The notes under the pieces: generated by a model
What the model was told of the DNA's origin: nothing
The model's database searches: none
Seen by the model: the letters and a program-made list of their open reading frames with translations, nothing else
Made by a program: the position numbers and the translations under genes
In this document: positions 45,107-63,921 of the stretch, piece after piece
How the letters are laid out: each line of letters opens with the position of its first letter
Position numbering within the stretch: the stretch's first letter is position 1
Assembly (NCBI GenBank): GCA_032355985.1
Contig: JAUKVZ010000008.1
Location: forward strand, 109,961 to 173,960
From: Sarcodiotheca gaudichaudii
Lineage: Eukaryota; Rhodophyta; Florideophyceae; Gigartinales; Solieriaceae
DNA length: 64,000 nucleotides
Direction: 5' to 3'

Positions 45107-45697
45107 ATGTCCAACCCCGAGAGCCATGACGCAAATGCCGCGACCGAACGAACTTACGTCGATGGCGACGCAGCGGCCGACAACCCGCAACTCTTTGCTC
45201 AGATCTATACCGAGCTGAAGCGAAGGGCCGGGAAGATCCTCAATCATGAACGGAGCGGCCATACGCTGCAGCCGACGGCGCTCGTCCATGAGGTCTACCT
45301 GAGGCTTGCCGAAGAGCGGAAGGCACATCCAAAGAATCGGGCTCATCTACTGAGTCTGGGATCGCTGGCGATGCGGCGAGTGCTCATCGACTACGCACGG
45401 GCACACACTGCGAAGAAGCGCGGCCAGGGCAAGGTTCGAATTACGTTGAGCGGGAGCGCAGAGCCAGCACGCATCGAGTCCTTCGAGGATCTCATTGACC
45501 TCGACGACGCCATCCGGGAGCTTGAGCGTTTAGACGAGCGACAGGCCCGCGTGGTTGAGCTTCGATTTTTCGGTGGTCTGACCGCGGAGGAGACAGCCGA
45601 GGCGCTCGATATCTCCAAGCGCACGGCGGACAGCGATTGGAAGATCGCTCGCGCCTGGCTCCATCGGCGCCTCAGTGAGCGGAGCGCAACGTCATGA
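45107..45697 (+). CDS. ECF sigma factor, planctomycete/TIGR02999 type (pair 3)
   Basis: 196 residues from the ATG at 45107, preceded by GGAGAC; an ATG at 45086 would add seven residues. Region 2 is LFAQIYTELKRRAGKIL..ERSGHTLQPTALVHEVYLRL, then RRVLIDYARAHTAKKRGQG. Region 4 is VELRFFGGLTAEETAEALDIS, ending RTADSDWKIARAWLHRRL. Its stop overlaps the kinase ATG (ATGA at 45694-45697). The pair faces away from the 1195-residue surface protein, so a shared regulatory region is possible. Confidence 0.92.
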   Translation: MSNPESHDANAATERTYVDGDAAADNPQLFAQIYTELKRRAGKILNHERSGHTLQPTALVHEVYLRLAEERKAHPKNRAHLLSLGSLAMRRVLIDYARAHTAKKRGQGKVRITLSGSAEPARIESFEDLIDLDDAIRELERLDERQARVVELRFFGGLTAEETAEALDISKRTADSDWKIARAWLHRRLSERSATS

Positions 45698-48457: not shown

Positions 48458-49195
48458 TCAATGCAAACTGTCCAGATGCGCTTTGCGCTTGGCCAATCGA
48501 TATGCATGAAAGGACACCGGATCTATTCTCAGCGCCTTCCCTTTGAGGAGGTTGTTCCGAAGTTCCCCCTTGCGGGCCGCTCTAGAGATTTCAGTCTTGC
48601 ATGCGCCGAGGCTCGTCGGCTCGAGAAGTTCCATGAGCATCTGGGCACAGTCGATTGATCTGAGCCATTGCTCTGTTCCCGGGATATGGCCTTTAAGGAC
48701 GAGCGGTACCTGGTCCAGCAATTCAACGGCCCGCGCAGAAACAACGTCGCCCGCGTGCCATCGCTGAGTGCGCGCGTTCGGGCGCACTATGTTGTGCTCA
48801 TCCGTCAGGAGTCGAGCAGGGAATGCGGCGACGGAGAGAATGTTTCCCAATGCAGCGAGCACGCGAACGTCCGCGCCAGTGCCGCCGTAGGGGATCTGGA
48901 CAACGAACGCCTCCCCAGGTTCCATTGCGTATATAGCGCCTTTCCGTCTGCTCCGGCGGGGTTTCTTGCCAGCACGCGGCCCGGTCATGACGCGTCCAAA
49001 CGCATGCCCGATGTCAGTGCCGATGACACTGACGCACGCGAGCAGACGCTCCGTCTCTTCAGACAGCATCGTTGCCTTCACGGGCCCTTCCACGACTCGC
49101 CCGCCCGAAGGATGTTCCCCCGTGGTCAATCGGAGTGCCCGAAGGAAGTTCTGAACTGCGTTGTTGATGGAGACAGCGGATGTCTCAACTTTCAT
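48458..49195 (-). CDS. Unrecognised 245-residue protein at the distal end of the defence island
   Basis: No family recognised. The start at 49195 is supported by a GAAAGGA ribosome site seven bases upstream. Features: a helical N-terminus (INNAVQNFLRALRLT), a basic patch (GKKPRRSRRKG, about residues 76-86), a beta-rich middle (EAFVVQIPYGGTGADVRVLAALGN) and a helical, mixed-charge C-terminus (AQMLMELLE; AARKGELRNNLLKGKAL). No HKD (phospholipase-D), PD-(D/E)xK or helicase motif is visible, so it is not an obvious DrmC. It shares strand with the defence operon but is separated from it by 499 bases and may have its own promoter. Confidence 0.75.
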   Translation of the reverse strand: MKVETSAVSINNAVQNFLRALRLTTGEHPSGGRVVEGPVKATMLSEETERLLACVSVIGTDIGHAFGRVMTGPRAGKKPRRSRRKGAIYAMEPGEAFVVQIPYGGTGADVRVLAALGNILSVAAFPARLLTDEHNIVRPNARTQRWHAGDVVSARAVELLDQVPLVLKGHIPGTEQWLRSIDCAQMLMELLEPTSLGACKTEISRAARKGELRNNLLKGKALRIDPVSFHAYRLAKRKAHLDSLH

Positions 49196-49694
49196 TGTCG
49201 AGTCCTTTCGATGATTTCAATGGTCCTCATTGACCGCATGAATCGTAGGACTCGCAACGCTGTCGCCAAGTGCAAGTTCGCAAAGAGCCTGTGGATAACC
49301 TGTCGGTGTAGCCCGAAGATAGTCGTACGCGTGCGAAACACGGCCGTTCACTCAACAGCCACTCGGGAAGAAGAGGATTGAGTGATCGCTCAGTGCAAGG
49401 TATGAGTGCGCCGGTGCGTTCGCATCCAAAGCGGCCCTCGGTGCGCGCAATCGCGCTCGTATGTCATCCGGTCGCTACCGGGATACAGTCAAACGCTATT
49501 GAACCTAGGGACTTAGACGCCGCGCGGTAGAAAACATCTCCCTCCCCGAGGGGAACAGTTCCAAACATGGAGTCCGAAGGAAAGCGAGCTATCGAGGCTG
49601 TGGTTCGATTAACAGCCTTGAGCGTCGCTTGGCCTTCAGTTGATTCGGCCACCTTAGCTATGCACGGTGGATGTGGAGAGCTCCCGCGGCAGCC
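49196..49694. other. 499-base gap between the two unknown defence genes
   Basis: No convincing gene. A 62-codon minus-strand frame (49464-49652) lacks any recognisable feature. One perfect DnaA-box-like nonamer (TGTGGATAA, 49290-49298) is present without companions. The base composition looks lower in GC than the left half of the window. The part next to 49195 should hold the promoter of the 245-residue gene. Confidence 0.5.
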
Positions 49695-51521
49695 TCAATC
49701 GACCGTACGCCTTCTTGCTGAAGTGCGCTTTCGTCTTGGACTCGTCGCTTTGGCCGGTCGCTGTTGCCAATGCGCCTCAAACGAAGCCGCGGCATTGACA
49801 ATGCTGGCCACATGGCTGCGCAGCTCAAGAGAGTCCATAGTATCGAGGATTTGATGAACTAGAACTTGTACATGCCCAGATTTCGGGTCAACGGCGAACC
49901 GACACAGAGTGGCCGGGTCTGCATTCCGCTCGAGCAGGTGTATTGCGTCATCCTTCCGCGTCAGCTTGATGGGACGTTCTTGACCATCCGTGCAAGTCGT
50001 ACGAATCCGAACGGCAGCATGTCCATCCTCAAGAGCTGCAGCCTCTTCGAACAGGACGGTCCTGCTGTAATCAGGCTCTGATTTGACCTCATGAACAAAT
50101 CCACCAGATGCGATGTCGTAAGCCAAGTCAATACCGAGGTTCTTCGCGTGATAGTAAAGTCTCATCATCAGGTCGTCTGGAGACGACTCTCGCACAACGA
50201 GAGGCTTATTGCCGATGATGACTGTCACCTGCGAGTGGGTGGCATCGATCGTCTTTGTCCGCACGGACATTGCGACCTTGCGAGGCACTTTGTCAACGTG
50301 GGGCCACCATGATGTCGCCAGTTGCGCCAACAAGTCTGGGTCGCATGCACTCATCTTGATATCCCGCGAGAGCCGGCTGTAACCGTGGAACAGCCCCGCC
50401 ATCGCCCCGGCTAGTGCGCGCACCGTCGGGCCTGGACGCAGTGACGTGTCGCCGGAATGGATGATTCGGTCGGGTTCATGTCGAAGAATCAAGAGCATGA
50501 GGGCCCTGCGCACAATCGATCCCGAATCATCGAGTGAATCGGCCTCTCTCTCAGAGCTCGCGACCGATCGCACGAATCTCTGCCATTTCTGAATCTGGGC
50601 AACCATATCGGAGGTTGCACCCTCGGCAGCCTCGGTTGCCACAGTCTCCAACACTCCTGATTCCACCCACCCGTCCTTCGGAGACGACGCCACCAAGTAC
50701 CTCACGGCTGCAGACAGCAGCCGATTGTCTACCGAGGGCGTGTCTTGGGCGACGGATCGTGCATTCAGAGCCTCGTCGAGCAGCGTTGTGATAGACGCCG
50801 CTCCATCCGCTACTTGTGCTCGTTTTGTCTTGGACGGCGTGAGGGCATCCACGATGGCCGTGAACCACGGCACAGAGCGTGGCGGGGCGAGACAACACGC
50901 CATGGCAATCGCACCCATTGTCGAATCGATTCGATGGAAGTCTTCGGCGGTGCTTGTCGCGGGCTCCGTCGAGTGGAGCGCATCGAGCAGTTCATCGCAC
51001 GAAGCGTTGCTTGTATTGAACAAGTCCTCTGTAACCGCCGTCGCCGGCATCGGCAGCACGTTGTCGAATTCGCGCGCTTTGAAGTCGTCCAGATCATCGT
51101 GGCTGCAGAAATGAAGTGTCAGCACAGCGCTGATCGGCACTGGGCAACCGACCAGATATCCGAGATCGTCTGGCCGAGGGCGTTGCTGAGCATTCAGGCA
51201 CTCTGTGTTGCGGTCTGCCCGGATGGCGAATACGTCCGCGACCCCAAGGAGTGAAGGAGTCAACTCGGCGATGACCGGATAAACACCTTGAACGCCGCCC
51301 GTCAGCGCCTTGCGCAATTGGTCTGGCACGAAGCCTCGCCAAATGGGAATACGGCCACGCGAGTGCTCAAGGAGATCGTCGTAGTATTTGTCGTAGGCGT
51401 CTCGCCCTCTCACAAGCCCGCTTGAGAAGACCGGCAGTATGTTCGCCCTGTTCGTGGCGAACAAAAGCCGCGGAGCATCCTCGAACAGTGATTTCGTGGT
51501 AGCACGTGATCGCTTAGCCAT
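49695..51521 (-). CDS. Unrecognised 608-residue protein of the DISARM-like operon
   Basis: 608 residues from the ATG at 51521 (TTG at 51524 possible), overlapping the end of the helicase gene by eight bases. No family recognised. The N-terminus (PRLLFATNRANILPVFSSGLVRG, read as LLFATNRANILPVFSSGL) has the outline seen at the start of some ADP-ribosyltransferase-like domains (T..N...IL..GL), only a faint resemblance. The middle is helical with LSAAVRYLVA and ALMLLILRHEPDR. A later region (TIDATHSQVTVIIGNKPLVVRE) is beta-rich, and the tail is strongly basic (SPRRKRTSARRRT), suggesting nucleic-acid contact. Tight coupling to drmA/drmB-like and helicase genes makes it a probable defence component. 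Confidence 0.8.
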   Translation of the reverse strand: MAKRSRATTKSLFEDAPRLLFATNRANILPVFSSGLVRGRDAYDKYYDDLLEHSRGRIPIWRGFVPDQLRKALTGGVQGVYPVIAELTPSLLGVADVFAIRADRNTECLNAQQRPRPDDLGYLVGCPVPISAVLTLHFCSHDDLDDFKAREFDNVLPMPATAVTEDLFNTSNASCDELLDALHSTEPATSTAEDFHRIDSTMGAIAMACCLAPPRSVPWFTAIVDALTPSKTKRAQVADGAASITTLLDEALNARSVAQDTPSVDNRLLSAAVRYLVASSPKDGWVESGVLETVATEAAEGATSDMVAQIQKWQRFVRSVASSEREADSLDDSGSIVRRALMLLILRHEPDRIIHSGDTSLRPGPTVRALAGAMAGLFHGYSRLSRDIKMSACDPDLLAQLATSWWPHVDKVPRKVAMSVRTKTIDATHSQVTVIIGNKPLVVRESSPDDLMMRLYYHAKNLGIDLAYDIASGGFVHEVKSEPDYSRTVLFEEAAALEDGHAAVRIRTTCTDGQERPIKLTRKDDAIHLLERNADPATLCRFAVDPKSGHVQVLVHQILDTMDSLELRSHVASIVNAAASFEAHWQQRPAKATSPRRKRTSARRRTVD

Positions 51522-52719
51522 CAATCCACTCTACGACGCCGGATTCGGTACGAGGGAAGTGATCCAGAACAGGCGGGCGTTCATCATCTGGCGCGCTGTA
51601 AAGGAACTCAAGATGTCGTCGTGCTCGGGAGCAGAGCACATACATCTGCATGCGCATCTGGTCGATGGATGCGGGATCCCATCGTCGCTCCTGCAGCTCC
51701 GGGATGAACACGGCGTCGAATTCAAGCCCCTTGCTGCTCTGGTCGCATAGAACCGTCACCGTGCCCGGTTCGTCAAATTTGAGTTGCGTCGCGTCCTTGA
51801 AATCCGGGTCGCCGCTCGTGAATCGCTGCACCCTGACGTTTGGAACGTCCTGCAGCCGATGTCTCAGCTTATTGAAGAAACGCTTTTGGAGCTTCTTAGT
51901 CGGAACAAAAACTCCAACCTCAAGGTCTGACTGATTCGAGATGAATCGGGCGAGTCGGTCGACCGTTTCGTTTAGATCCGCGGTGCGTAACATCCGAGGG
52001 ACGGGCCCGTGCCGGCCGTCGGGAAGATCGGGGATCCCGCTCGGCAACCCGCAGTAGAAGTGGGCCGCCACTTTGGCGATCTCGAAGGTGTTCCTGTAGT
52101 TGCGGGTTAGTGCATAGACCCGCCCGTCTTCTAGGCGGAGCGCCTCACGGATCTCTTTGAGCGTTGAATTGGTATCAGCACTGAGTCGCTGGTTTTCGTC
52201 TGCGAGCACAGTCACGGCGAGTTGCCCGTTCTCAGCTCTGTCGGCATGGAAGAGCATCATCGCACACACGTCGTAGAACGAGGGCGGAAAATCTTGTCCC
52301 TCGTCGACGATGACGTGCCCCCATTTGTGTATCGCTTTCTTGAGCTTTTGAGGGCTTTGCGGGAGGCTGATGACATCAGATTTCACGGCATCCCAATCGT
52401 AGACGAATCTCCTGACTTGAGGAACATACCGTCCGAAGGAGCTGCGCCACCACCCCGAGAACCACTTAAACCACGTATTGACGCCTTCCCTTACTGCAGT
52501 ATTCGAGCTCGCGTTGCTTGAATACTGATGCAGTACGTTGTTATACATGACCACTGTGGGAGTCTGTCCTTTGCGAGCCACCGCTTCAGCTCTATAGAAT
52601 GCAACGACCGTCTTACCAGTTCCGGGCGGCCCGAAAACCATTGTCGCTCTGTCCAGTGGCGCTAAGACGCAGATTGCATCTTGCTCCTTGCTCAATTCTT
52701 CGTAGCTCGGAGTTCTCAT
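51514..52719 (-). CDS. UvrD/SF1-like DNA helicase
   Basis: 401 residues, short for UvrD. SF1 motifs: Walker A GPPGTGKT (30-37), motif II VDEGQDF (138-144), motif III-like VLADENQR, motif IV-type LTRNYRNT, motif V-like SSKGLEFDAV and motif VI YVLCSRARRHLEFLY. It lacks the 1B/2B insertions of full-length UvrD, so it may be an ATPase or translocase rather than a processive helicase. It overlaps the DrmB-like stop by four bases (ATGA) and the next gene by eight, so it is a tightly coupled member of the defence operon. Standard DISARM does not include a UvrD-like gene. Confidence 0.88.
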   Translation of the reverse strand: MRTPSYEELSKEQDAICVLAPLDRATMVFGPPGTGKTVVAFYRAEAVARKGQTPTVVMYNNVLHQYSSNASSNTAVREGVNTWFKWFSGWWRSSFGRYVPQVRRFVYDWDAVKSDVISLPQSPQKLKKAIHKWGHVIVDEGQDFPPSFYDVCAMMLFHADRAENGQLAVTVLADENQRLSADTNSTLKEIREALRLEDGRVYALTRNYRNTFEIAKVAAHFYCGLPSGIPDLPDGRHGPVPRMLRTADLNETVDRLARFISNQSDLEVGVFVPTKKLQKRFFNKLRHRLQDVPNVRVQRFTSGDPDFKDATQLKFDEPGTVTVLCDQSSKGLEFDAVFIPELQERRWDPASIDQMRMQMYVLCSRARRHLEFLYSAPDDERPPVLDHFPRTESGVVEWIDG

Positions 52720-54659
52720 GCCGATGCAGTCTCCGACATGGTCGCGTCGATGTCGTCGATGACATCCGAGAAGAAGCCGGTCAGTCCATCGCCATCACCG
52801 GTCAGTACTGCGCGGTCCAGCATCACATTCGCACAGATGCAACTTGTTTCGCTTACAAGGCTGCATGCGTGGCAGGCTGCACGATTGAGTCCTTGTAGCC
52901 CTTGCGCTTCCATCTCCCGACAGATCGGATCCGCTGAGCACCACCGAGAACGCTGTATCGCTGTCAGCAGAGTAGGGAACAACCGTTCAGGCTGGCCTTC
53001 ACGAACAAGTCCGCCGAGGGAACCCTCGGAGTCTCCATCCGCCGTGTACACAAGCACGCCTGCCATTGGCGGCTGCTTGCCTCCCGGGGGGGCCGCGTAA
53101 ATCCGTTCCCTCAGCGAGGACGATGCGTACCCGCACTCGAAACTGAGCTGCCGGATCAGCATGTGAGAAAGCGTGTGCAGCAAGACAAAGCGGAAGGAGA
53201 ACTCAGGTAGGAATGCGAGGTTTGACTGGCTCCGGCGGGAACGCATTGACTCAAGGCGCTGTTGGAGCTTCTCGCGGTTTGCATGCTCCCACCCGGCTAC
53301 CACGTCTTCGGCCAACACCAACATGATCCCCTCGCCATACACCTCGATACCTGGGAGCCAGCCAAGGTGGCGCTCAAGGCCCGGTGCAACCACGGTCGAG
53401 CCTGGCTCCTGACGTTCGAAACCGGCGAGTGCCCTGACTTCGCGGATTCGCTTCGCCAGCACAATGCCATCAAGCAGGCGGTTCAGCGACCGAAAGGGGT
53501 GCTTGTCTGGTGAGTCAGCGATCACTTCGGATACATCTGCGCGATCCGCAATGAACGGTGCCTCTTCTGATTCTGCCCCCCGGGCGGCAAGAAACGCCGC
53601 CCACTCTTCTCGGAGCAGGCCACTCGCGCCCTTGGGCGCGGCGGCGGCCTGCGGCGAAGACTCGTCGCGTATCACCCTCATCACATCTTCGGCAGTGCAT
53701 TTCAGATCCTGAGCAACAAATTCAGCCGCCGTGCGGACTGCGGAATCGTTTTCGGGATCCGCTATGGATGTCCAGATCTGCTTCACCATCCCATAGTTGC
53801 TGTGCGACCGAATATTATCGAAAAGGCGATCAATATCACCGGCGTCGTCATCAGGAATGTCGATCGCGGATGGAACCTTGGGGAAATAGAGATTTGTCGC
53901 ACCTCGCTGCATGACTTGTGGGAAGTGCTCGCAAGCGTGATCGCCTGACTCGATGCGTCGTTCCCACGGCTGGCGAGCTTCGCATCCACGAATTGCGCCC
54001 TTGAGACTGTCTTTCCTGGCGATGCCATGTAGCGATCGCTCCGCGCCGCACGTGTTGCACCGGACGACCAGCGAGCCTAGTCCACCGCCCCCGCGCCTCT
54101 GGGTCAAGAACTCAAGCTCCGCTCGGCGGCACTGTCTTTGCGCGTGTTCTTGACTCTTGCTATGGGTCCATCGGTCCCACGGCACATCTGCGAGGTGACC
54201 ACCCCGGCAGGCCATCACGAATCGCATAGGAACGAGCTTGGACCGCTTCCGGCATTGCTCGCAGCGGGGCTGATCACTCTTCTGTTCCTTCGTATAGCTC
54301 CACCGGATCATTCGTCGGCAAGAAGGGCAGAACAGCCATTGCGGAAAGCGGAAGTAGGGAACAGCGTAGCTGTTCTGGGATCCGAACTCAGGAGCAGCAG
54401 GAGCCATTTTGAAGCCCGAAACGCCCAACTCGGCTTCCAGTCGAGGAAGGTGAATGTCTTCGCCCCGGCCATTCCAGTGGAAGATGTCCATGGCCACGAA
54501 TGACTCATCTCCGAAGTCATAGATGGCACCGACACCAAACGGAGAGACAGTCGCCGATCGCCGCACCGTGCGTTGGCGCGACTTCTTCAACGCCGGGGCT
54601 GGTCGCGAAGACCGGCTGTTCGCATCTGATCGTGATGTGCTGTGCCGCTTCTGGCTCAT
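52716..54659 (-). CDS. drmB: DrmB-like protein with DUF1998 domain
   Basis: 647 residues. The N-terminus has RRSATVSPFGVGAIYDFGDESF, read as SPFGVGAIYDF, then FCPSCRRMI and CEQCRKRSK, a four-Cys zinc-binding set, and ACRGGHLADVPWDRW, all as in DrmB. The C-terminal part is DUF1998: LLHTLSHMLIRQLSFECGYASSSLRERIY, read as HTLSHMLIRQLSFECGY..SSLRERIY, then GVLVYTADGDSEGSLGGLV and a final Cys cluster (CHACSLVSETSCICAN). DrmB is the partner of the DrmA helicase in DISARM, where the complex restrains incoming DNA. It follows the drmA-like gene by 36 bases. Confidence 0.85.
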   Translation of the reverse strand: MSQKRHSTSRSDANSRSSRPAPALKKSRQRTVRRSATVSPFGVGAIYDFGDESFVAMDIFHWNGRGEDIHLPRLEAELGVSGFKMAPAAPEFGSQNSYAVPYFRFPQWLFCPSCRRMIRWSYTKEQKSDQPRCEQCRKRSKLVPMRFVMACRGGHLADVPWDRWTHSKSQEHAQRQCRRAELEFLTQRRGGGGLGSLVVRCNTCGAERSLHGIARKDSLKGAIRGCEARQPWERRIESGDHACEHFPQVMQRGATNLYFPKVPSAIDIPDDDAGDIDRLFDNIRSHSNYGMVKQIWTSIADPENDSAVRTAAEFVAQDLKCTAEDVMRVIRDESSPQAAAAPKGASGLLREEWAAFLAARGAESEEAPFIADRADVSEVIADSPDKHPFRSLNRLLDGIVLAKRIREVRALAGFERQEPGSTVVAPGLERHLGWLPGIEVYGEGIMLVLAEDVVAGWEHANREKLQQRLESMRSRRSQSNLAFLPEFSFRFVLLHTLSHMLIRQLSFECGYASSSLRERIYAAPPGGKQPPMAGVLVYTADGDSEGSLGGLVREGQPERLFPTLLTAIQRSRWCSADPICREMEAQGLQGLNRAACHACSLVSETSCICANVMLDRAVLTGDGDGLTGFFSDVIDDIDATMSETASA

Positions 54660-54695
54660 CGCACTAACCCTCGATTCCTCTCGTTCTTATGCGGT

Positions 54696-57600
54696 TCATT
54701 CACCCTTTATGTGGATCAGGGACTGGCTGTCCACATTTCGCATTGAATTGAGAGTGCGCCAGCCTCGTCGCTCGCGGGACTCGAACGTGCGAAGCAACGG
54801 CTCGAACTGCTTTCCGGAATTTGGAGAGTACACCAACGGCGCCGTTTTTCGCTCCTTGGATAGTCTTGCGCGCTCGGCCCACTCCTCGATCAGTCGAGAC
54901 AAATGAGCTTGGATCGCATTCGCCTCGGCAGGCTCCGCCGCTGCCATGCGTTGACTGAGTTGGCCAAGGATCGGGTGCATCGTCGCAGCGCTTGGATCGA
55001 AAAATTGCGCATCCGCGTTGTCCGAAAGGCCGGCGGCGTGCCTCGCGACAATCACCAACGCCGCGTGCAGCGCCCGCTCGCGCGATGGCAATGCGAACGG
55101 AGTCACACTTGTCGGCTCAACCCACCGGTAGAGCGCGTCGTGATAAGCGACAAAACTCTCATAGTGGGAACGGTCTCTCGGCTTCGTTGGCGAGTACATT
55201 GTGATGACGAGACCAGGTATGCGGGAGCGTCCAACGCGACTCGTCGCTTGGATATACTCCGCTGTGGTTTTCGGCTGGCCAACGACCATCATGACGCCGA
55301 GGCGCTTAACGTCGACGCCGACGGAAATCATGTTGGTGCAGGGCAGAATATCGATCGCGTCATCGCCTGCTCTTTGATCGAGTTGAAGCAGGACTTCGGG
55401 AATGCGTCGGCCTGCAAGGTTTGCGGACAGTTCCTCGACATTCTCAATCTCGCGCAGTTTGGAATCGTCGGTCGCAATGATCCCTACTCGGGCCGGGATG
55501 TCGTCTCGCGCGAGCGCCATTGTCTTCCCAAGCTCGCGCTTGCTGTTGTGGTAGATCAGCAGAGTCCAGTACGCATCTCTAACTTCTTCAGACAGGCATT
55601 CGAGTTCAAACGGTGCCTGCGATGCGGCGGCGGCGGCTCGAACCAGAGAGGTAACGGGCGTATGTCCCTGCCCCATCACACCCACGTACAAACGACCGGG
55701 AGCGCTCCGATCGATTTGCGCGAAGAAGGAATCGTCCACTGACAGACCCGATGGCGGGAAGACTGCCACCTCTCGTGCATAAAGTCGTTCAGCTTGGTCT
55801 GCAGCGCGCCTGATAGTTGCCGTTGCTGCGATGATCTTCGGACGATGGCCGTCGCGTCGCAGCAAGCAGTCTAGGGCCGCTTCGTAGATTCCGGCTATTG
55901 TGCCGAGCGGGCCGGAAATCAAATGAAGTTCGTCTTGGATGATCAGGCTCGGCGGACGGATCTGCCCCGCACCGAAGAACGTCGTGGCCCGATTATCCCA
56001 CGCCAGCCGTGCGAATTTGTCGATGGTGCCGATCAGCATGGTCGGTGCCCGCCGATACAATTCTTCATCCACAACCGCGATCGGAAGGCGGTTATGAAAC
56101 GGGCAGTCGTCCGACGGGCAGTAAAAGTCGAACTGCGCCGATGTTGCCCGAACACCGTAGTCCTCGGGATCATCACTCTGCTCAGCAGGAACGATCCGCG
56201 TACCGCACCAAGGACACCGTTGCAACTGAAACGGATTCTCTGGTTTGCCGTCGTCGAGCAGATCTTCGTACTGGTTTTTTGCCTCATTGAGCGTGTTGGC
56301 GGTGGACTGACCACCGATCCAGAGGCCGAGTGAGAAAGGCTCGTCGCCTAGGTCGTCGGCAGTACGGCGAAGTTGCTCGCACGCACAAATGAGTGTCGCG
56401 GCCCTCTGAAACTGCTGCGACGTGAGCAGACGAAGGGTGTACCTCTTGATGACAGCGGTGCCGGAGCCCGCAGAACCATCACGCAGCCGCCGAAGGAACA
56501 TATTCAGCGATGCAACCCACATATACGCTTCGGTCTTTCCGCCGCCCGTCGGGAACCAGATGAGATCGACAGTGTCTCGATGCTCGTCATTCTCGTCAAC
56601 GATCGACGCGGCTGAAAGAAGCATGAATGCAAGCTGAAATGGGTACCATCGGTAGTCATCAGTTGCGGCGGAGTCGTAATCGGGCGATGAAAACGGTTCC
56701 TCGCAGCGTTCGCGAGTGCCGCCCCCGTACTCGGCGGCGCTATGACACATCTGCATGAGCATCGCTCGCGTCGCGAGTTGGAACGCCCGCTTTACCGTTG
56801 GATCTCCGAGAATCGAAGCAATGCCCGTGTGCATACGCGCAGAGGCGATGCGGAGCCTCCCGAGAATACGACTTGCTGCGGCCGCATGAACTCCTGGAAC
56901 GGACGAAGCGTCATTTGCGAGGGCGTCAATCCACAGGTCGTACCGGGCGACGAAATACAGGAGGTCCTTCTCAAGATCAGCGGAGTCCAAGCCGGGATCG
57001 GCGAGGTATCTCAGCGACAGTACCCTTGCCGCTGCGCGACCCGCTGCCCCCTCTCCCAGATCAGCTGCCTTCGTGACCGGATAGGTCTCGTGATGCGGCA
57101 TCGACTCCGAATAGATCCGTCTCGACCCCGAATCCTCGTCCCACATCGCGGAGCAACCGTGACCCACGGCATACGTATGCCTATCCCGATATAGCAGATC
57201 GAGTTCTTCTTCCTCAGCATCGATCCGAGTTCCCGCGAGCCGAGGGTAGACATCGATGGTCCCGCCGATCGCTTCACACGAGAGTCCCGCTTGAAAGAGG
57301 CATTCCGCAGGGCCAAGCCTACGCGCTTCAACGCTGCGGCGGTTGAGTAGAGTCACAGTAACCAAGAAGCCGTTCTTCATCGGCCGCCAGATAGAGTGCA
57401 GCGATGCGTGCCCCGACAGCACATCGATCTGATGACTTCCGCCTGCCGCGGAAGGACACTCTAGGCAATTCATTTCCGGCGAATCTCGTTCCGCCAGTGG
57501 TCTGCGCTCCCATGTCTCATTGTGACCGCTCTTGCCGATCCGTTCATACATCGCGGCATGCACGCCGCAGCTGACGGACTTGGTGTCACGGACGAAGAAA

Positions 57601-57887
57601 CTCACGCCTAGAGAAGCGGGGAGTCGTTCAAAGGCCATACTGATCGGATTCTCCCCATCCGAGTCTTCTTCGTCAGCGAGTGAAGCTTCGCCCTCTTCCT
57701 CGGCTTGGAGTTCGTACGCGTCCGCACTCTGGGGATAAAGAACGCCGAGCAGATATCGATCCAGCGGGCTTCCTTCGAACGTCTCAGTCGGGTCAGACGC
57801 AGGCCCGACCAACTCCGATCGCATGTAATCAATGACCCGTGCCCGATCGTCGGTCGCAGCCTGCCATTTCACTGCGATAGAAGTCAT
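54696..57887 (-). CDS. drmA: DrmA-like SF2 helicase of a DISARM-type system
   Basis: 1063 residues. After a long N-terminal domain with an acidic stretch (65-80) comes an SF2 helicase: Walker A FPTGGGKT (445-452), a zinc-type Cys set CPWC...CPSDDC (558-595), DELH box (652-655) in IIQDELHLISGPLG, AATATI, and motif VI QATSRVGR (880-887) after NMISVGVDVKRLG. This combination of Cys insertion, DELH box and IIQDELHLI is what DrmA proteins show. DrmA with DrmB forms the DISARM core. Its start overlaps the NERD-UvrD stop as ATGA (57884-57887). Acts on DNA in the cytoplasm; partner specificity here is untested. Confidence 0.85.
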   Translation of the reverse strand: MTSIAVKWQAATDDRARVIDYMRSELVGPASDPTETFEGSPLDRYLLGVLYPQSADAYELQAEEEGEASLADEEDSDGENPISMAFERLPASLGVSFFVRDTKSVSCGVHAAMYERIGKSGHNETWERRPLAERDSPEMNCLECPSAAGGSHQIDVLSGHASLHSIWRPMKNGFLVTVTLLNRRSVEARRLGPAECLFQAGLSCEAIGGTIDVYPRLAGTRIDAEEEELDLLYRDRHTYAVGHGCSAMWDEDSGSRRIYSESMPHHETYPVTKAADLGEGAAGRAAARVLSLRYLADPGLDSADLEKDLLYFVARYDLWIDALANDASSVPGVHAAAASRILGRLRIASARMHTGIASILGDPTVKRAFQLATRAMLMQMCHSAAEYGGGTRERCEEPFSSPDYDSAATDDYRWYPFQLAFMLLSAASIVDENDEHRDTVDLIWFPTGGGKTEAYMWVASLNMFLRRLRDGSAGSGTAVIKRYTLRLLTSQQFQRAATLICACEQLRRTADDLGDEPFSLGLWIGGQSTANTLNEAKNQYEDLLDDGKPENPFQLQRCPWCGTRIVPAEQSDDPEDYGVRATSAQFDFYCPSDDCPFHNRLPIAVVDEELYRRAPTMLIGTIDKFARLAWDNRATTFFGAGQIRPPSLIIQDELHLISGPLGTIAGIYEAALDCLLRRDGHRPKIIAATATIRRAADQAERLYAREVAVFPPSGLSVDDSFFAQIDRSAPGRLYVGVMGQGHTPVTSLVRAAAAASQAPFELECLSEEVRDAYWTLLIYHNSKRELGKTMALARDDIPARVGIIATDDSKLREIENVEELSANLAGRRIPEVLLQLDQRAGDDAIDILPCTNMISVGVDVKRLGVMMVVGQPKTTAEYIQATSRVGRSRIPGLVITMYSPTKPRDRSHYESFVAYHDALYRWVEPTSVTPFALPSRERALHAALVIVARHAAGLSDNADAQFFDPSAATMHPILGQLSQRMAAAEPAEANAIQAHLSRLIEEWAERARLSKERKTAPLVYSPNSGKQFEPLLRTFESRERRGWRTLNSMRNVDSQSLIHIKGE

Positions 57888-59530
57888 TGGTTTGCTCCCT
57901 TGGTCAGCATGTCGCGGGTGCGCCGGGAAACCAGTTTATGGAGTCCGTGTCGTTCATTGGATGGGAAGGCTATGAAGAGCCCTGCGTGGGCACGGGTCAT
58001 GCCTACATACAGCTCCGACCGCGCACGGTCTGACTCTGTGATTCCTGGGAGATCGACCACGGCCACACAACGGTTTTCGAGTCCCTTGAAGTCGCGGATC
58101 CTGCAGAACGTCATGCCGTCCGGTGGCCATTTAAACCGTTTGTCCCTTCCGAGAAAAGTAAGCCGACGGCGCACACGATCCGGCAGCAAGTGAGCGACGG
58201 ATTGCTCGAAGTTCAGCGGTGACAGGATAGTGATGTGACTGAGCAGCACGTCCCCCTCAAGCCATGCATTGAGACGCCGAATCAGGTTCTCAACGCACTC
58301 GTCATCGCTGTCATGGTAGGAGATTTCGATTGGCGGTCCCTGTCCTTCTATGACGGCCGTCCCGATTTCCGCTCCGGTGAGAAGCTGGGTCTGCAGAACG
58401 ATTTGCTTGGTGTTGCGACAGTTCCGGTGTAGTCGATGAATCGCCGCACGCTGCTGAAGCCAGGCCAGAGCCTCCGCTTCAAGAGGCTCGTGCAGCCCGC
58501 TCTGATTGTTCGGATCCATGAAGATCCGCCATGTGCCTTCGCGGAGACCTCCGGCTACAAGCTCGCCTAACCGATCAAGCCACTCGTCCTTGATGAAGTC
58601 TTGTCCCTCATCCACGACGAGAACTTCGTGCTGCTTGTCAGCACATTCGAGATGATCGTCCGAGTCGATCGCCCGCACTTCGACGCCTGAACCTGCAAGA
58701 CAAGGACGCAGGTACTCGGCAAGAACGTCACTCCGACAGCAGAGCAGAACCGAGCGATGCCGAGATGCGGCGCGCCGTGCTGCTTCAATCGCAAGAAATG
58801 TCTTCCCTGTCCCAGCCCCTCCAAAGCAGAGCAGACGCTGGTTCTCTTCCACGGCATCAAGAACACCAAGCTGATCGGTCGTCAGCCTGACCACTTCTGC
58901 CATGGTGTCGTCGAAAACCGCACCGAGGACAGGAACCTTGTCGAAATCGGGCCGTAGCGCAAGTTGGAGCGAAGCTAGGTCTTCCGGTGACGCAATCATA
59001 TGGAACCCGCGTCCGGCAGATCGCCAAAAGCGGGCCAGTCGGAGGAGATACGGTTTGAGGTCCGTCGCGCCTGCGCAGTCGAAACGCGTTGCGACTTGGT
59101 CCAGGTTCCAGCTTGCACCCTCCAAGTCGAAATCAATGTCGGGGAACATGACACCCCAGCCCCAGCAAAAGTTGCGATGCCAATCGGCAGCCCTTCCCTG
59201 CCGCACTAGTGTCCGGAGCGCCTCGTGTCCGCTTGCAGCTTGCTCGAACGGTCCCTCAGAACGAGTAGTGGTCTCATCGAATCGGTTCGTAAAGGTCCAG
59301 AGTCCGTCACGACACGCGACACGGCCGCCTTTGACTTCTATCGCGAAGAGGCCGTCAGACCACGCAACAACGAAATCAATCTCTGACCACCGCTTGTAAT
59401 CGTGACGGGATAGGTTCAATGAATGCAACGCGAATGCGCCCGGCCCTAGATCTGTCCGCTCCAACAGTGAGAAGACCTTTTGCTCCGCATTACTCCGGAA
59501 CCGATGAACAACTGGGGGAACCATCCTCAT
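57884..59530 (-). CDS. NERD nuclease-like domain fused to a UvrD-type helicase
   Basis: 548 residues. Residues 12-140 form a NERD (nuclease-related) domain: SEIDFVVAWSDGLFAIEVKGG, read as Asp52 ... Glu65-x-Lys67, the PD-(D/E)xK catalytic plan. An SF1 core follows: Walker A GGAGTGKT (237-244), motif II VVDEGQDF (305-312), MDPNNQSG, HRNCRNT, FKGLENRCV and YVGMTRAHAGL. The nuclease residues look intact. ATG at 59530 or 59524 could start it. It sits between vsr (66 bases upstream) and drmA (overlap ATGA), making it part of the operon. Not part of described DISARM gene sets as I know them. Confidence 0.9.
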   Translation of the reverse strand: MRMVPPVVHRFRSNAEQKVFSLLERTDLGPGAFALHSLNLSRHDYKRWSEIDFVVAWSDGLFAIEVKGGRVACRDGLWTFTNRFDETTTRSEGPFEQAASGHEALRTLVRQGRAADWHRNFCWGWGVMFPDIDFDLEGASWNLDQVATRFDCAGATDLKPYLLRLARFWRSAGRGFHMIASPEDLASLQLALRPDFDKVPVLGAVFDDTMAEVVRLTTDQLGVLDAVEENQRLLCFGGAGTGKTFLAIEAARRAASRHRSVLLCCRSDVLAEYLRPCLAGSGVEVRAIDSDDHLECADKQHEVLVVDEGQDFIKDEWLDRLGELVAGGLREGTWRIFMDPNNQSGLHEPLEAEALAWLQQRAAIHRLHRNCRNTKQIVLQTQLLTGAEIGTAVIEGQGPPIEISYHDSDDECVENLIRRLNAWLEGDVLLSHITILSPLNFEQSVAHLLPDRVRRRLTFLGRDKRFKWPPDGMTFCRIRDFKGLENRCVAVVDLPGITESDRARSELYVGMTRAHAGLFIAFPSNERHGLHKLVSRRTRDMLTKGANQ

Positions 59531-59596
59531 GTGAACAGTTTATCGCAGGTCCAGGCCGGACTGCCTGCATTCGAGGTGTCAACGGTCCTGGCAAGG

Positions 59597-60037
59597 TCAG
59601 GGCGTACGGGTTGTAACCGCCGCCTCGGCACGACGGAGGGCGCTGAGCAATCGACGCTCGAGTCTGGGAGTATCTGCAATCTCGCATTCCCAAACGATGA
59701 TGACCTTCCAACCGTTTGCAGAGAGAGCACTTACGATCTTCGCGTCCCTCGCCATATTCGCTTCGAACTTGCTCTGCCAAAAGTCGACCCTCGACTTGGG
59801 CAGGTAGGCTTTCGGGCAGTCTTTGTGACGATGCCAGAAGCAACCGTGCACAAAGACAACCGTGCGGAGCCGGGGAAGCACAATATCCGGCGTGCCCGGC
59901 AATCCATTGACATGCAATCGGAATCTATATCCCATGCGATGCAGGAGTGATCGCACCGACCTCTCCGGCTTCGTGTTCCTTCCACGAATCTGAGACATGT
60001 TCCAGCTACGCTGCTCGGTGGAGAGCTTATCAGCCAT
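59597..60037 (-). CDS. vsr: Vsr very-short-patch-repair endonuclease
   Basis: 146 residues, typical length. Motifs: MSQIRGRNTKPE, R..LH..GYRFRLH, the catalytic PGTPDIVLP with Asp, VVFVHGCFWHRHKDC with zinc-binding His/Cys, then WQSKFEANMARD and VIIVWECEI. Vsr nicks DNA 5' to the T of T:G mismatches that arise by deamination of 5-methylcytosine, and is normally paired with a C5-methyltransferase of overlapping specificity (Dcm-type CCWGG sites in E. coli). Here it begins 12 bases after the methyltransferase stop, so it serves that enzyme. Confidence 0.95.
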   Translation of the reverse strand: MADKLSTEQRSWNMSQIRGRNTKPERSVRSLLHRMGYRFRLHVNGLPGTPDIVLPRLRTVVFVHGCFWHRHKDCPKAYLPKSRVDFWQSKFEANMARDAKIVSALSANGWKVIIVWECEIADTPRLERRLLSALRRAEAAVTTRTP

Positions 60038-60049
60038 GAGCTTTCGTGG

Positions 60050-61525
60050 TCAGACGCTAGCCAGATCCGGCTTTGCAGAACCGGTACGTCGCCTCACCTT
60101 CTTCGTGGATTTCTGCGCCCGTTCCGTCTTCGCCATGAACCTGAGCAATGGAGTGCTCACCGCCTCAACAACATCCGGGACTACAGCGTTTCCGAACTGC
60201 TTGTACGCTTGCGTATCAGATACAGGGATGTCATCGGCCCTGTTGACCACTTCGCGAAACCCCATCAGCCGAGCGGCCTCAACGGGTGTCAGGCGGCGCG
60301 GATTGCCATTGTCTTTGCCTGGAATGTCAACGGGATCTGAAGGCCGCCGAGGGATGAGCACTTCAGAGCCATCCTTGTAATACCGGGCGCTCAGCGTCCG
60401 CGAGATCCCATCGAGGTCGGTCATTCCGAACCCGAACCCGTTGCCCTTGGCCTTGTGCTTCTCCGCGTACCGTTGCAGATAATTCCAAAGGTGGTCTGTC
60501 AGGACATACTTGGGCTCGGGATTGGCTTCTAAGATCTCGCGGAACTTCGGCCGTGGACCATCCGGAGGCTTCGGAAACGAGAAGCCAGTTGCGTCACCGT
60601 AGAGATCCTTGCGCAGGCATATGATGAAAATCCGCTCTCGATGCTGAGGCACATAGTCGGCAGCATCGATGATCTGATCAAACACCGTGTACCCGAGTTG
60701 TTCAAGGTTTTCGCGGATCACCGGCCACGTCCGGCGCTTGTCATGCGACTTCAGGTTCTTGACGTTCTCCAGAATCATCGCCCTCGGTCGCTTGATCTTC
60801 GCGATGTCGCAGATCGTGAAGAACAGATTGCCCTGCCGTTCGCAATCGAATCCGTGCTTGTGTCCGAGCGCGTTTTTCTTGGAGACACCAGCGATCGAGA
60901 ACGGCTGGCAGGGAAACCCAGCAGCGAGCAGATCGTGGTCGGGAATGGAGACTGCAGAAATCTCTGTAATGTCGCCTTGGGGTTTTTCTCCAAACCAATG
61001 CTCGTAGGTTTTAGCTGAGAATCGATCCCACTCAGAAGTGAATACGCACTTGCCACCGAGACGCTGGAGGCCGAGTCGGAAGCCGCCGATTCCAGCAAAG
61101 AGGTCGATGAAACTGAACTTCATGTATTTCGGCCTTGCGGGCCGAGCCACTGCTCGCTCTTGGAAGAGTGAGAACTGGTTTGGCCCGTCGCGCAGCAGAC
61201 GGAGCCTTTCGACGATGAAGTTCTTGATTCTCTGGTTGGCCGACGCGCTCTCTGCCTCGATCCAACGCCAGAGCGGATCCGGGATGCTCCGCAGGCAATA
61301 CTGCTCCTTGGTTTTCAACGCAGAGGGATCCTGCGGATCTGCTGGTACGACAGACCGGGAGACGGGTTGCGCGTCAAGCGGATTCGGTGATACTCGGTTT
61401 GTCCTGAGGTGTTCGAGAAGCCCGCAGACGAGGACATTGATGTCCATTTCGCGCATGTAAGCTTGCTGCTCGAGCCAGACCCACACGTCGCCGGGCACCT
61501 TCTTCATGCTGTACTGATTTTTCAC
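60050..61525 (-). CDS. DNA cytosine-C5 methyltransferase with duplicated N-terminal DNA-binding-like module
   Basis: 491 residues from a GTG at 61525 with GAGGT upstream. Residues 136-465 are a C5-methyltransferase: DLFAGIGGFR (141-150), PCQPFS with catalytic Cys206, ENVKNL, QHRERIF and late motifs RLTPVEAARLMGF and YKQFGNAVVP. Residues 2-41 and 73-112 are two related copies of a 40-residue module (K-x-QY..[KR]-x-[VI]-P...W-x-W-[LI]-E, then a helix), in size and plan like ribbon-helix-helix repressors. The tail is basic. It heads the defence operon and is divergent from the restriction gene. It methylates host sites; it matches the role of DrmMII in class 2 DISARM. Confidence 0.93.
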   Translation of the reverse strand: MKNQYSMKKVPGDVWVWLEQQAYMREMDINVLVCGLLEHLRTNRVSPNPLDAQPVSRSVVPADPQDPSALKTKEQYCLRSIPDPLWRWIEAESASANQRIKNFIVERLRLLRDGPNQFSLFQERAVARPARPKYMKFSFIDLFAGIGGFRLGLQRLGGKCVFTSEWDRFSAKTYEHWFGEKPQGDITEISAVSIPDHDLLAAGFPCQPFSIAGVSKKNALGHKHGFDCERQGNLFFTICDIAKIKRPRAMILENVKNLKSHDKRRTWPVIRENLEQLGYTVFDQIIDAADYVPQHRERIFIICLRKDLYGDATGFSFPKPPDGPRPKFREILEANPEPKYVLTDHLWNYLQRYAEKHKAKGNGFGFGMTDLDGISRTLSARYYKDGSEVLIPRRPSDPVDIPGKDNGNPRRLTPVEAARLMGFREVVNRADDIPVSDTQAYKQFGNAVVPDVVEAVSTPLLRFMAKTERAQKSTKKVRRRTGSAKPDLASV

Positions 61526-61548
61526 GGGCCGTACCTCGGGGAATCCAT

Positions 61549-61562
61549 GGTATCAAGATACC
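61549..61562. promoter_or_regulatory. 14-base palindrome in the methyltransferase/restriction divergent promoter
   Basis: GGTATC-AA-GATACC is a perfect inverted repeat of 6-base arms. It lies 24-37 bases upstream of the methyltransferase GTG and about 82 bases upstream of the endonuclease ATG, inside the 119-base region that must hold both promoters. Position and symmetry fit an operator; the DNA-binding-like module at the methyltransferase N-terminus is the natural candidate to bind it. Confidence 0.5.
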
Positions 61563-61644
61563 GTACATACCCGCGTGTTCAAGTGCGTTCGCCAAGGGAC
61601 ACTGCCTGTTAGCTCCCGATGTCCGGCCGTGCTCCAATACTCCG

Positions 61645-63051
61645 ATGACGGGGCTGTGGCAAAAGCATCTCGAGCGGTTTCCAGATGAGCACCTCTCCCT
61701 CCAGCAGGTCCAGGGCGTCCTGCATCACGCCGGCTGCAAGCGGTTGTATGTCAAGGAGCTGGCGTGGAATCACGATTCAAAAAGGCAGATTTACCTGACC
61801 ACGGATCTCTCGGCGTTCAACATGTTCCCGAACCGGGTTCAGTACGACCCGCCGATGCCGAAGGGCATCGAATCTACGCACAAGGCCAAGAACAGAGGGC
61901 GAGGGCGGATCTTCGGTCATCTCAGATTCCTCTGGATCAGCCCCGACGGCACGGTCAGCCCCGCGCCCGATGCCAAGATCATCTACTACCCGCAGTATCC
62001 CGAAGTGCGGCTCTCGGGTTTCCTTAGAGGTGTGAATAACGTTCCATCGAAGTACCTTCGTGAGAAGTCCGGAGAGAAGTACCCGAATCGCCTTTTATTT
62101 CTCGGCGTCACGCGGGACGGTACCGTGGTTGCGCTCTTGGCCGTCGGTCAGGACACTCTTAGGGACCAACTGCATGCGGTGCCGGGCTACTGTGTTGGCG
62201 CAGGCCTGAACTCCATTCCGCTCGTTGATCCCACCGAGCCCACCCGCCTCAGAATGCTGCGTGATCTGCAATCGGTTCATGACAAAGGTTGGATTGTCGG
62301 CAAGCGACTGGCCGGGGGCAGGGCAGTCCCGTGTAGTTCGCCGAATGCAGTGGGATACACACTTGAGGCTGAGCTCGGTGTAACCCCAAACGGCGACAAC
62401 GCACCTGACCATCTCGGCTGGGAGATCAAGGGACACACTGTGACGCGCTTCGGCGGCACGCAGAACAAGGTCGTAACTGTATTCACACCGGAGCCCGACC
62501 GCGGCCTATATCAAGAGCGAGGGCCGCTCGAGTTTCTCAGGCGATGGGGATACCCCGATAGGTCGGGTATCGCCGATCGTGTCAACTTTGGTGGAATCTA
62601 TCGTGTTGGGCGTGTGGCTGAACTGACCGGTCTTTGCTTGCAGCTTGTTGGCTATGATGCGGCCGTTCCCGATCGTATCGCACCGAACGGCATGGTTGCA
62701 CTCATTACGAATGAAGGCGAGTTGGCGGCGGGGTGGTCGTTCGCCAAGCTCATCGAGTGCTGGCAGCGCAAGCACGCGGCCGCAGTCTATGTGCCAGCCC
62801 TGAAGAGAAAGACCGGTAGCGAAGTTGCGTTTCTGTACGGCGAAGAGGTGCTGGTCTGCGAGGGCACGGATTTCCTTCAGGTGCTTAAGGCGATGCACGA
62901 CGGGGCGCTTTACCTCGATCCTGCTCTGAAGGCCACGAGCTGGCGCTCAGGCTCGCCAGCAATCAAGCGTCGTAATCAGTTTCGAATTCGGATGTCCGAT
63001 GTCCCGGCCCTCTATCGAGAAGCGAGTGTCGAGCGTCTGAGCCGCATTTGA
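61645..63051 (+). CDS. MvaI/BcnI-family restriction endonuclease with large N-terminal extension
   Basis: 468 residues, about twice the size of MvaI. From about residue 235 the sequence matches the MvaI/BcnI family: GYTLEAELGVTPNGDNAPDHLGWEIKGH, read with Asp255 and Glu260-x-Lys262 as the PD-(D/E)xK site; later VNFGGIYRVGR and YFYGE-like FLYGEEVL. The family cuts CCWGG (MvaI) or CCSGG (BcnI) as monomers. The first 230 residues (LYVKELAWNHDSKRQIYLTTDL) are not recognised and may bind DNA or another subunit. It is transcribed away from the methyltransferase across 119 bases. Confidence 0.85.
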   Translation: MTGLWQKHLERFPDEHLSLQQVQGVLHHAGCKRLYVKELAWNHDSKRQIYLTTDLSAFNMFPNRVQYDPPMPKGIESTHKAKNRGRGRIFGHLRFLWISPDGTVSPAPDAKIIYYPQYPEVRLSGFLRGVNNVPSKYLREKSGEKYPNRLLFLGVTRDGTVVALLAVGQDTLRDQLHAVPGYCVGAGLNSIPLVDPTEPTRLRMLRDLQSVHDKGWIVGKRLAGGRAVPCSSPNAVGYTLEAELGVTPNGDNAPDHLGWEIKGHTVTRFGGTQNKVVTVFTPEPDRGLYQERGPLEFLRRWGYPDRSGIADRVNFGGIYRVGRVAELTGLCLQLVGYDAAVPDRIAPNGMVALITNEGELAAGWSFAKLIECWQRKHAAAVYVPALKRKTGSEVAFLYGEEVLVCEGTDFLQVLKAMHDGALYLDPALKATSWRSGSPAIKRRNQFRIRMSDVPALYREASVERLSRI

Positions 63052-63303: not shown

Positions 63304-63921
63304 TTACGTTTCGCAATAACTGCTGCACCATGGACGTACTGCCATCACTGTCCCGAGAGCCTCCGGCACCAAGTGATCCAAGTATCCAATCGTCGTCAGC
63401 AGACTCCGATGCCCCAACTGCCGCCTGATCAGCGCCACATCCACGCCTTCCGCCCGTAGCTCTGCCGCGTGCGTATGACGCAGGCCATGCGCATGCACCC
63501 GCTTCTCGATACCAGCCTTGCGGCCAAGCTCGGGCAGCACGCGACGCACATATGCCTGAGCGAGAGCCGCGCCGGATCGTGTGCAGAACACGGCACCCGA
63601 CCATTCGAATCCCATCTCATCTCGCAGGTCGAGCCACGCCCGTACGTATTCGAGTGCCGTTCGATCGATGCCGACTGTTCGGTTCGTTCCACCTTTGCCG
63701 TGCAGCACGCGGATCGCACACGCCTCGAAGTCGATGTCCTTCGGCGCCAGTGCGAGGGCCTCGCCCAGTCGCAGGCCTGCTCTATAAAGGATGACGATGA
63801 GAGCCCGATTCCGGATCTGCGTCCACGTGCGGTCGCCGCAGGCTTCGATGAGCGCCAGCGCCTCGGCCCGTGTCAGTACCTCCGGCGGCAAGTGATAGCC
63901 TCGTTTCCTTCGCCGTGACAT
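63304..63921 (-). CDS. Short tyrosine recombinase (integrase), catalytic domain only
   Basis: 205 residues. All catalytic positions are present: Arg51 in AGLRLGEAL, Lys76 in HGKGG, His145-x-x-Arg148 in HGLRHTHA, His171 in LGHRS and the nucleophile Tyr180 in GYLDHL. The N-terminal core-binding (SAM-like) domain of XerC/D or phage integrases is missing, so the protein resembles short solo recombinases of mobile elements. It lies 252 bases past the restriction gene, convergent with it, at the right edge of the defence island, and could mark the island's mobility. Confidence 0.9.
   Translation of the reverse strand: MSRRRKRGYHLPPEVLTRAEALALIEACGDRTWTQIRNRALIVILYRAGLRLGEALALAPKDIDFEACAIRVLHGKGGTNRTVGIDRTALEYVRAWLDLRDEMGFEWSGAVFCTRSGAALAQAYVRRVLPELGRKAGIEKRVHAHGLRHTHAAELRAEGVDVALIRRQLGHRSLLTTIGYLDHLVPEALGTVMAVRPWCSSYCET

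Follow-up and report, generated by a model that had tools for sequence, protein, structure and literature searches.

Known systems and the locus

DISARM defence systems are built around the core pair DrmA and DrmB, which is accompanied in class 2 by drmMII, drmE and drmC and in class 1 by drmD, drmMI and drmC. The same pair stands in the operon described here, which lies in a 64-kb window (the whole stretch of DNA that was analysed) from an assembly filed under Sarcodiotheca gaudichaudii (contig JAUKVZ010000008.1, positions 109,961 to 173,960). The window is the final 64 kb of a 174-kb contig in a 4.54-Mb, 61-contig assembly, and its end is the contig end. Judged from sequence comparison, the locus is best read (at a probability of about 0.62) as a composite anti-phage operon, in which a distinct DISARM-like branch, formed by DrmA-DrmB, a short UvrD-type helicase and a 608-residue protein termed X, would share a single gene run with a type II restriction-modification (R-M) system of predicted CCWGG specificity.

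In Serratia DISARM, the ATPase activity of DrmAB is stimulated by unmethylated DNA and lowered by 5-methylcytosine (5mC) DNA, and DrmC is apparently non-essential and often missing from annotated operons, according to the parts of the study drawn on here (PMC9142583). DISARM acts even without the nuclease DrmC. Two related systems appear in the consulted parts of a preprint (Bell et al. 2025, PMC12458937): ARMADA, which has YprA and DUF1998 in one protein beside BrxHII-like and PglX-like genes, and TALON, whose genes include TPR-CSD and TBP and whose YprA protein is a fusion.

A recurring gene order around DrmA and DrmB

The operon comprises seven minus-strand genes, running from 61525 to 49695 (Table 1) and assigned from open reading frames (ORFs) and hidden Markov model (HMM) searches of PADLOC, Pfam and NCBIfam. 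Their order is C5-methyltransferase, Vsr, NERD-UvrD, DrmA, DrmB, a 401-residue UvrD-like helicase and X, and an MvaI/BcnI-family endonuclease (start at 61645) diverges from the head. The HMM matches agree with the original prediction, made from the letters alone, as to ORFs, strand, families and divergent MvaI-type endonuclease, and they support its central claim of a DISARM-like DrmA-DrmB core that lacks a phospholipase D (PLD) nuclease and is combined with extra helicase genes and the genes of a type II R-M set. The joints measure, head to tail, +12, +66, -4, +36, -4 and -8 bases, giving three overlaps (-4, -4 and -8) rather than the four first counted.

DrmA, in whose translation the motifs TGGGKT and QDELH are visible, and DrmB, a separate DUF1998 gene 36 bp after it, both classify as the DISARM proteins of those names. 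Walker A and DEGQ are readable as intact in both superfamily 1 (SF1) helicases, as are the D...ExK residues (D...EVK) of the NERD domain. The best PADLOC model for NERD-UvrD is RTasNERD-Hel (116 bits), a helicase named for defence reverse transcriptases. PADLOC, Pfam and NCBIfam reveal neither DrmD nor a PglX-like DrmMI in the operon, on a contig that ends with the window. No operon protein has a PADLOC match to DrmC (for the UvrD and methyltransferase proteins, among the matches listed), and these models do fire on the control locus L022; none matches DrmE either, for which the models had no positive control, and an 801-residue gene of locus L013 likewise has no PADLOC match. A DrmC-like protein was not found in the organism's genome, in a search without a positive control.

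When the 401-residue helicase was compared by tblastn with 72,556 plasmids, 27 records were recovered, the best four of which adjoin a DUF1998/DrmB gene, and the same four rank highest among the 86 plasmid records that match DrmA (44-47% identity, with 99-100% of the query covered). The order is DrmA-DrmB-UvrD followed by a 483-residue gene in Photobacterium sp. TY1-4 (L001), with an EcoRII-C endonuclease, dcm and vsr 2.8-8.9 kb downstream, and DrmA-DrmB-UvrD followed by a 467-residue gene in Photobacterium damselae (L003), with an MvaI/BcnI endonuclease and dcm 5.3-8.5 kb downstream. Deinococcus gobiensis (L002) has NERD-helicase-DrmA-DrmB-UvrD and a 576-residue gene; 2.7 kb upstream, the opposite strand carries a C5-methyltransferase that is 27% identical and adjoins a DUF2357 gene. 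Streptomyces fungicidicus (L004) has DrmA-DrmB-UvrD, no C5-methyltransferase by profile or cytosine-methylase annotation, and a 'SAM-dependent methyltransferase' 3.7 kb off. Directly before DrmA in this last plasmid lies a 1273-residue gene (5151-8972), annotated as a sigma-70 factor and matching PADLOC MzaA with 135 bits.

By profile comparison, the genes that follow UvrD in L001, L002 and L003 are homologues of X. A profile of 27 close rows finds those of L002 (1e-19) and L003 (1.6e-7), with no match in L001 up to E 1; the L001 and L003 proteins are 35% identical over their full length, and a joint alignment of all three proteins matches the close rows in a profile-profile comparison with a probability of 97.4% (E 1.4e-11, 237 columns). 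The core of the gene order that the original prediction proposed to look for is thus present elsewhere, as DrmA-DrmB-UvrD-X on two Photobacterium plasmids and one Deinococcus plasmid and as DrmA-DrmB-UvrD in Streptomyces. The operon is real and, with its core recurring on plasmids from three further phyla, not a chance cluster. For the UvrD protein, a scan of the genome contigs found no relative (weak evidence of absence, only six peptide patterns being used), viral contigs gave at least six weak loci among the matches listed, and none was found in phages.

Placement and gene content of the clade

Maximum-likelihood trees of DrmA and DrmB were built from 22 loci, namely the window and 21 of the 86 DrmA-matching plasmid records (60 listed). 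They do not include L028, a locus added on account of its NERD helicase and lacking an annotated DrmA. Both trees place the window together with L001-L004 in a single clade (100/100 for DrmA, 99/99 for DrmB). Seven loci labelled class 1 group together for DrmA (100/99), and in the DrmB tree they make up one side of a branch supported at 100/99, where the class labels are those of the analysis itself (drmD annotated in L012, L020, L022, L026 and L027; L021 and L025 labelled by their DNA methyltransferase). Long branches lead to L024, L013, L011 and L026 in both trees and to L006 in that of DrmB, and the letter make-up of several rows is unlike the rest, including L004 (DrmA tree) and L003 and L004 (DrmB tree).

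Profile searches of the ORFs of the five clade members find UvrD in all five, X in four, a C5-methyltransferase in four, NERD-UvrD in two, Vsr in two and DrmC in none (its profile, built from two proteins, matches only its own sources L022 and L025), while an MvaI-type endonuclease is present in two, with EcoRII-C in L001 besides. These counts show absences and not kinship, since several of the profiles were built from members themselves. The proposal that a NERD-helicase fusion replaces the PLD nuclease is not borne out across the whole clade, two of five members having NERD-UvrD; the constant element is the UvrD protein of about 400 residues after DrmB (5/5), with X in 4/5. Likewise, an operon carrying its own R-M set and endonuclease, as predicted, is true of the window, whereas elsewhere the R-M genes stand apart or are missing.

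Outside the clade, the order UvrD-DrmA-DrmB-NERD is found in Azospirillum, Rhizobium rhizogenes and R. ruizarguesonis. A Rhodococcus opacus plasmid (L007, 5605-18586) has NERD helicase-DrmA-DrmB near Vsr, a NaeI-type endonuclease (by name of another specificity) and a C5-methyltransferase. Other DrmAB sets with SF1 or NERD helicases make the helicase partnership a wider theme, the short UvrD and X being particular to this clade, which from these comparisons looks like a distinct branch of DISARM.

Folds and conservation of X

At E 0.1, X has no family match in any of PADLOC, Pfam and NCBIfam. It was modelled with AlphaFold2 (pLDDT 83.9 and 83.2), and the folds were compared by Foldseek and VIA-align. 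The models give a DarT-like domain (about residues 14-170) of the DarT-type ADP-ribosyltransferase fold, an ADP-ribosylhydrolase-like domain (193-413) of the ARH/DraG fold, and a domain (450-589) resembling CesT and other type III chaperones. This fusion of DarT and ARH folds is without a matching model in PADLOC, the one defence library used. Of the two genes first described as unknown, X can therefore be named at the level of folds, and the other, of 245 residues, is still without a family and gives no sign of belonging to the operon. Neither protein has a PADLOC match to DrmC (positive control) or DrmE (no control), and the identification of X with either was rejected on this ground.

The claim for the DarT-like domain is restricted to its fold. 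None of the 27 X members matches the DarT family PF14487, hhalign gives X and DarT a probability of 0.1%, and homology by sequence profile was set aside as not significant. At the positions of the DarT catalytic residues H13, R51 and E160, X has, respectively, F or L, no clear counterpart and no conserved Glu (the register was set by eye from motif and structure offsets). The metal site of ADP-ribosylhydrolases is marked by the motifs GDALG, DD and DTDT; GDALG and DTDT have no equivalent at matching places in X (register partly by eye), and the place of DD cannot be aligned. PF03747 reaches E 0.29 in 1 of the 27 members. The models and alignments thus indicate that the known catalytic residues of both domains have apparently been lost. 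An ADP-ribosylglycohydrolase family member was not found in the organism's genome.

A single HxK(x4)D string occurs in the operon, at residue 458 of X (HAKNLGID), and the pattern is there in 2 of 27 aligned rows, inside the CesT-like fold. The earlier statement that the operon holds no HKD motif is literally wrong by this one string and stands in substance, and an HKD nuclease in X was rejected.

Of the alignments, A1 comprises 26 of 27 matches plus the query (fragment P0032 was dropped) and A4 comprises 26 of 50 matches. Plain tblastn found no X in plasmids, although distant homologues exist there, and viral contigs gave none. A sequence search of solved structures gave five rows, the best of which, a seed storage protein at E 0.023, was put down to chance; the fold search of BFVD gave nothing below 0.001 (best E 0.011). 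A scan of the genome contigs with the X alignment found no relative, which is weak evidence of absence, only two peptide patterns being used. On an Azospirillum ramasamyi plasmid (L005, 5436-15671), an intact gene of the DarT family comes about 110 bp after a UvrD-DrmA-DrmB-NERD helicase set. Of the 14 further DarT plasmid records listed, none recurs among the 60 listed DrmA records, and a general link between DarT and DrmAB genes was rejected as a single anecdote.

Methylation and restriction genes

The methyltransferase scores 428 bits with PADLOC MTase_II and 417 bits with DrmMII, which places it with the DrmMII of class 2, and 390 bits with NCBIfam PRK10458 dcm, below the cut-off of 710. 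Its motifs GFPCQPFS and ENV are readable as intact. It aligns with the solved chain 3me5 (annotated as a cytosine-specific methyltransferase, and presumably a Dcm protein) at E 5e-93, through the segment KGNGFGFGM...RTLSARYYKDGSEVLI, taken as the target-recognition region, and it is 46% identical to the dcm product of L003 and 43% to that of L001, the segment being common to all. Because of this alignment through the presumed target-recognition segment and the identity to the L001 and L003 enzymes, CCWGG is its likely specificity. Vsr fits a Dcm-type mark. An N-terminal extension of about 115 residues appears by eye to hold two repeats resembling ribbon-helix-helix; the slice has no Pfam match, and the repeats were not counted. 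L009 has a separate CopG gene ahead of its C5-methyltransferase. A second C5-methyltransferase lies elsewhere in the assembly (G000:C2:17069-18193, 109.5 bits).

Both members of a candidate type II R-M pair are present, as the methyltransferase with its Dcm-like segment and the PF15515 endonuclease. MvaI and BcnI themselves recognise CCWGG and CCSGG, and PF15515 does not distinguish between these specificities. No solved chain matched the endonuclease usefully by sequence. A homologue in P. damselae (L003), which sits 5 kb from the same DrmAB module, matches at full length (34% over 437 columns), including the N-terminal extension of about 205 residues, a slice of which has no Pfam match.

Proposed mechanism and alternative readings

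As a composite system, the operon would work at two levels. The Dcm-like methyltransferase would mark host CCWGG as self, Vsr would repair the T:G mismatches left by deamination of 5mC, and the divergent endonuclease would cut unmarked CCWGG of incoming DNA, as follows from their families. DrmAB might load on unmethylated DNA ends or on single-stranded regions and translocate with the help of UvrD; in the window locus NERD-UvrD may assist, its NERD domain taking the degradative role that DrmC has elsewhere, and such a site-independent attack could also hit phages without sites. X, its catalytic residues seemingly lost, could be a ligand-binding sensor or a scaffold that gates the complex. Since the DrmAB ATPase is reduced by 5mC DNA, a Dcm-type mark could serve both the endonuclease and DrmAB, and the two parts may be coupled through one methyl mark.

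Several observations weigh against this composite reading. Among the clade members, only the window has its R-M set within the operon; in L001 and L003 the set lies kilobases downstream of X, in L002 a methyltransferase alone is nearby, and L004 has none by profile or cytosine-methylase annotation. The plasmid sample was hand-picked (21/86, comprising the four UvrD matches and 17 from the list down to H67). For CCWGG the window shows a slight deficit, with 133 sites against an expected 148 (CCSGG, 201 and 174); this says little, neither supporting nor refuting active restriction. MvaI itself is generally listed as insensitive to Dcm 5mC, and if the methyltransferase protects against the endonuclease of the window, that enzyme must be unlike MvaI.

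The strongest alternative, possible if rather unlikely, is that two independent systems, a CCWGG type II R-M system and a DISARM-like DrmAB system, stand side by side within a defence island and share a promoter region and neither mechanism nor mark. The distance of kilobases between R-M genes and DrmAB in L001 and L003, the EcoRII-C rather than MvaI type of the L001 endonuclease, the lack of a C5-methyltransferase match in L004 and the phage-integrase gene that adjoins the window endonuclease all favour it. Against it, the methyltransferase, Vsr and NERD-helicase genes of the window share a strand, with gaps of 12 and 66 bp between them, methyltransferases with the Dcm-like segment accompany 3 of the 5 clade members (window included), and substrate 5mC lowers the DrmAB ATPase in the consulted parts of the Serratia DISARM study (PMC9142583).

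Two more specific proposals concern X. It is doubtful that the operon represents a DISARM-like class in which DrmAB and the SF1 helicases would expose single-stranded phage DNA and X would read, write or respond to ADP-ribose or NAD+ there; if true, R-M, DNA translocation and DNA ADP-ribosylation would be linked in one operon. Still less probable is a working writer and eraser of DNA ADP-ribosylation, in which the DarT-like domain would modify phage or host DNA, the ARH-like domain would reverse this and ADP-ribosylated DNA would end the infection; the folds fit such a pair, and the apparent loss of the catalytic residues speaks against it. Least probable is an ordinary class 2 DISARM with unrelated neighbours, which would account for the presence of DrmA, DrmB and a DrmMII-like methyltransferase and for the clade lying on the same side of the DrmA tree as L013 (the sole class-2-like locus, on a long branch), and which is disfavoured by the absence of any DrmC or DrmE match (DrmE without positive control), by a DrmA score of 895 bits, below the NCBIfam DISARM cut-off of 950, and by a clade of its own with linked UvrD and X genes.

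The branch described here, in which DrmAB is accompanied by an SF1 helicase of its own and a protein of ADP-ribose-related folds, would span four phyla if the window bacterium is planctomycetal. At the window locus an R-M set and a nuclease-helicase belong to the same gene run, which makes it possible to test whether a single methyl mark serves two mechanisms of restriction.

Features and surroundings of the operon

A perfect inverted repeat between the divergent start codons is a candidate operator (Table 1). The 245-residue gene lies 499 bp downstream of the operon and its product has no family in PADLOC, Pfam or NCBIfam; because of this separation and the lack of a family match it was excluded as a component on present evidence. 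Beyond it lie an ECF sigma factor and then a Ser/Thr kinase-TPR protein, which are probably a regulatory pair rather than a defence gene. The phage-integrase family gene adjoins the endonuclease just before the contig end and may mark a mobile-element boundary. Rfam and tRNA searches of the 64-kb window found none.

Table 1. Features of the window, in order of position.
Feature	Coordinates	Strand	Basis
ECF sigma factor, then Ser/Thr kinase-TPR protein	45086-48420		Kinase-TPR protein: PADLOC PD-T4-6, 222 bits
245-residue gene	48458-49195
X, 608 residues	49695..51521	-	ATG at 51521; AlphaFold2, Foldseek, VIA-align
Short UvrD-like SF1 helicase, 401 residues (clade marker gene)	51514..52719	-	PF00580 24.1 (cut-off 23)
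DrmB, DUF1998/MZB protein	52716..54659	-	NF038324 432.7 bits (cut-off 240)
DrmA, YprA-family SF2 helicase	54696..57887	-	PADLOC DrmA 679 bits; NF038325 895 bits (below cut-off 950)
NERD nuclease domain fused to UvrD-type SF1 helicase	57884..59530	-	PF08378 34.5 bits (cut-off 22.1)
Vsr very-short-patch-repair endonuclease	59597..60037	-	TIGR00632 152.6 bits (cut-off 97.85); PF03852 94.5 bits
Dcm-like C5-cytosine methyltransferase (DrmMII-like), predicted CCWGG	60050..61525	-	PF00145 267 bits
N-terminal extension of methyltransferase	61196-61525		By eye
Candidate operator, inverted repeat GGTATC-AA-GATACC	61549..61562	.	Perfect repeat
Type II restriction endonuclease, MvaI/BcnI family	61645..63051	+	PF15515 116 bits (cut-off 25), residues 206-457
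N-terminal extension of endonuclease	61645-62262		Alignable in P. damselae homologue
Phage-integrase family gene	63304-63921

Comparison with known systems

A narrow search of the open-access literature found no published description of a DrmAB-UvrD-X group and no existing name for the branch. Like DISARM class 2, the locus has DrmA and DrmB as separate adjacent genes and a C5-methyltransferase of the Dcm/DrmMII type; unlike it, there is no DrmC or DrmE match, and the operon has its own endonuclease, Vsr, two SF1 helicases and X, at a distance that is poorly measured by the single class-2-like locus (L013, on a long branch) in the trees. With class 1 it shares the DrmA-DrmB core, but the operon is without DrmD and a PglX-like methyltransferase, and the class 1-labelled loci lie across supported branches in both trees.

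As in ARMADA, a YprA-family helicase has partner helicases, and a Vsr-type nuclease and a UvrD/GajB-like helicase occur in both; here, however, the DUF1998 part is a separate DrmB, Vsr is a separate gene and the operon genes include nothing BrxHII-like or PglX-like, as far as ARMADA is described in the consulted parts of the preprint (PMC12458937). TALON, from the same parts, likewise combines a NERD nuclease with a YprA-family helicase, whereas the operon has no TPR-CSD or TBP among its Pfam matches and no fused YprA protein was seen (PMC12458937). X resembles DarT of the DarTG toxin-antitoxin systems in the fold of its N-terminal domain and a partial NAD+-site motif, but its catalytic residues are not conserved, the partner domain is ARH-like rather than a macrodomain, and PF14487 does not match. 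NERD-UvrD is closest to the DRT-associated NERD-helicase, although its partner here is DrmAB and no reverse transcriptase is among the operon Pfam matches. With R-M systems of the EcoRII/Dcm/Vsr type, finally, the locus has in common a C5-methyltransferase, Vsr and an endonuclease from a family that includes CCWGG enzymes, and it differs from them in that the endonuclease carries an extension of about 205 residues and the operon continues into DrmAB.

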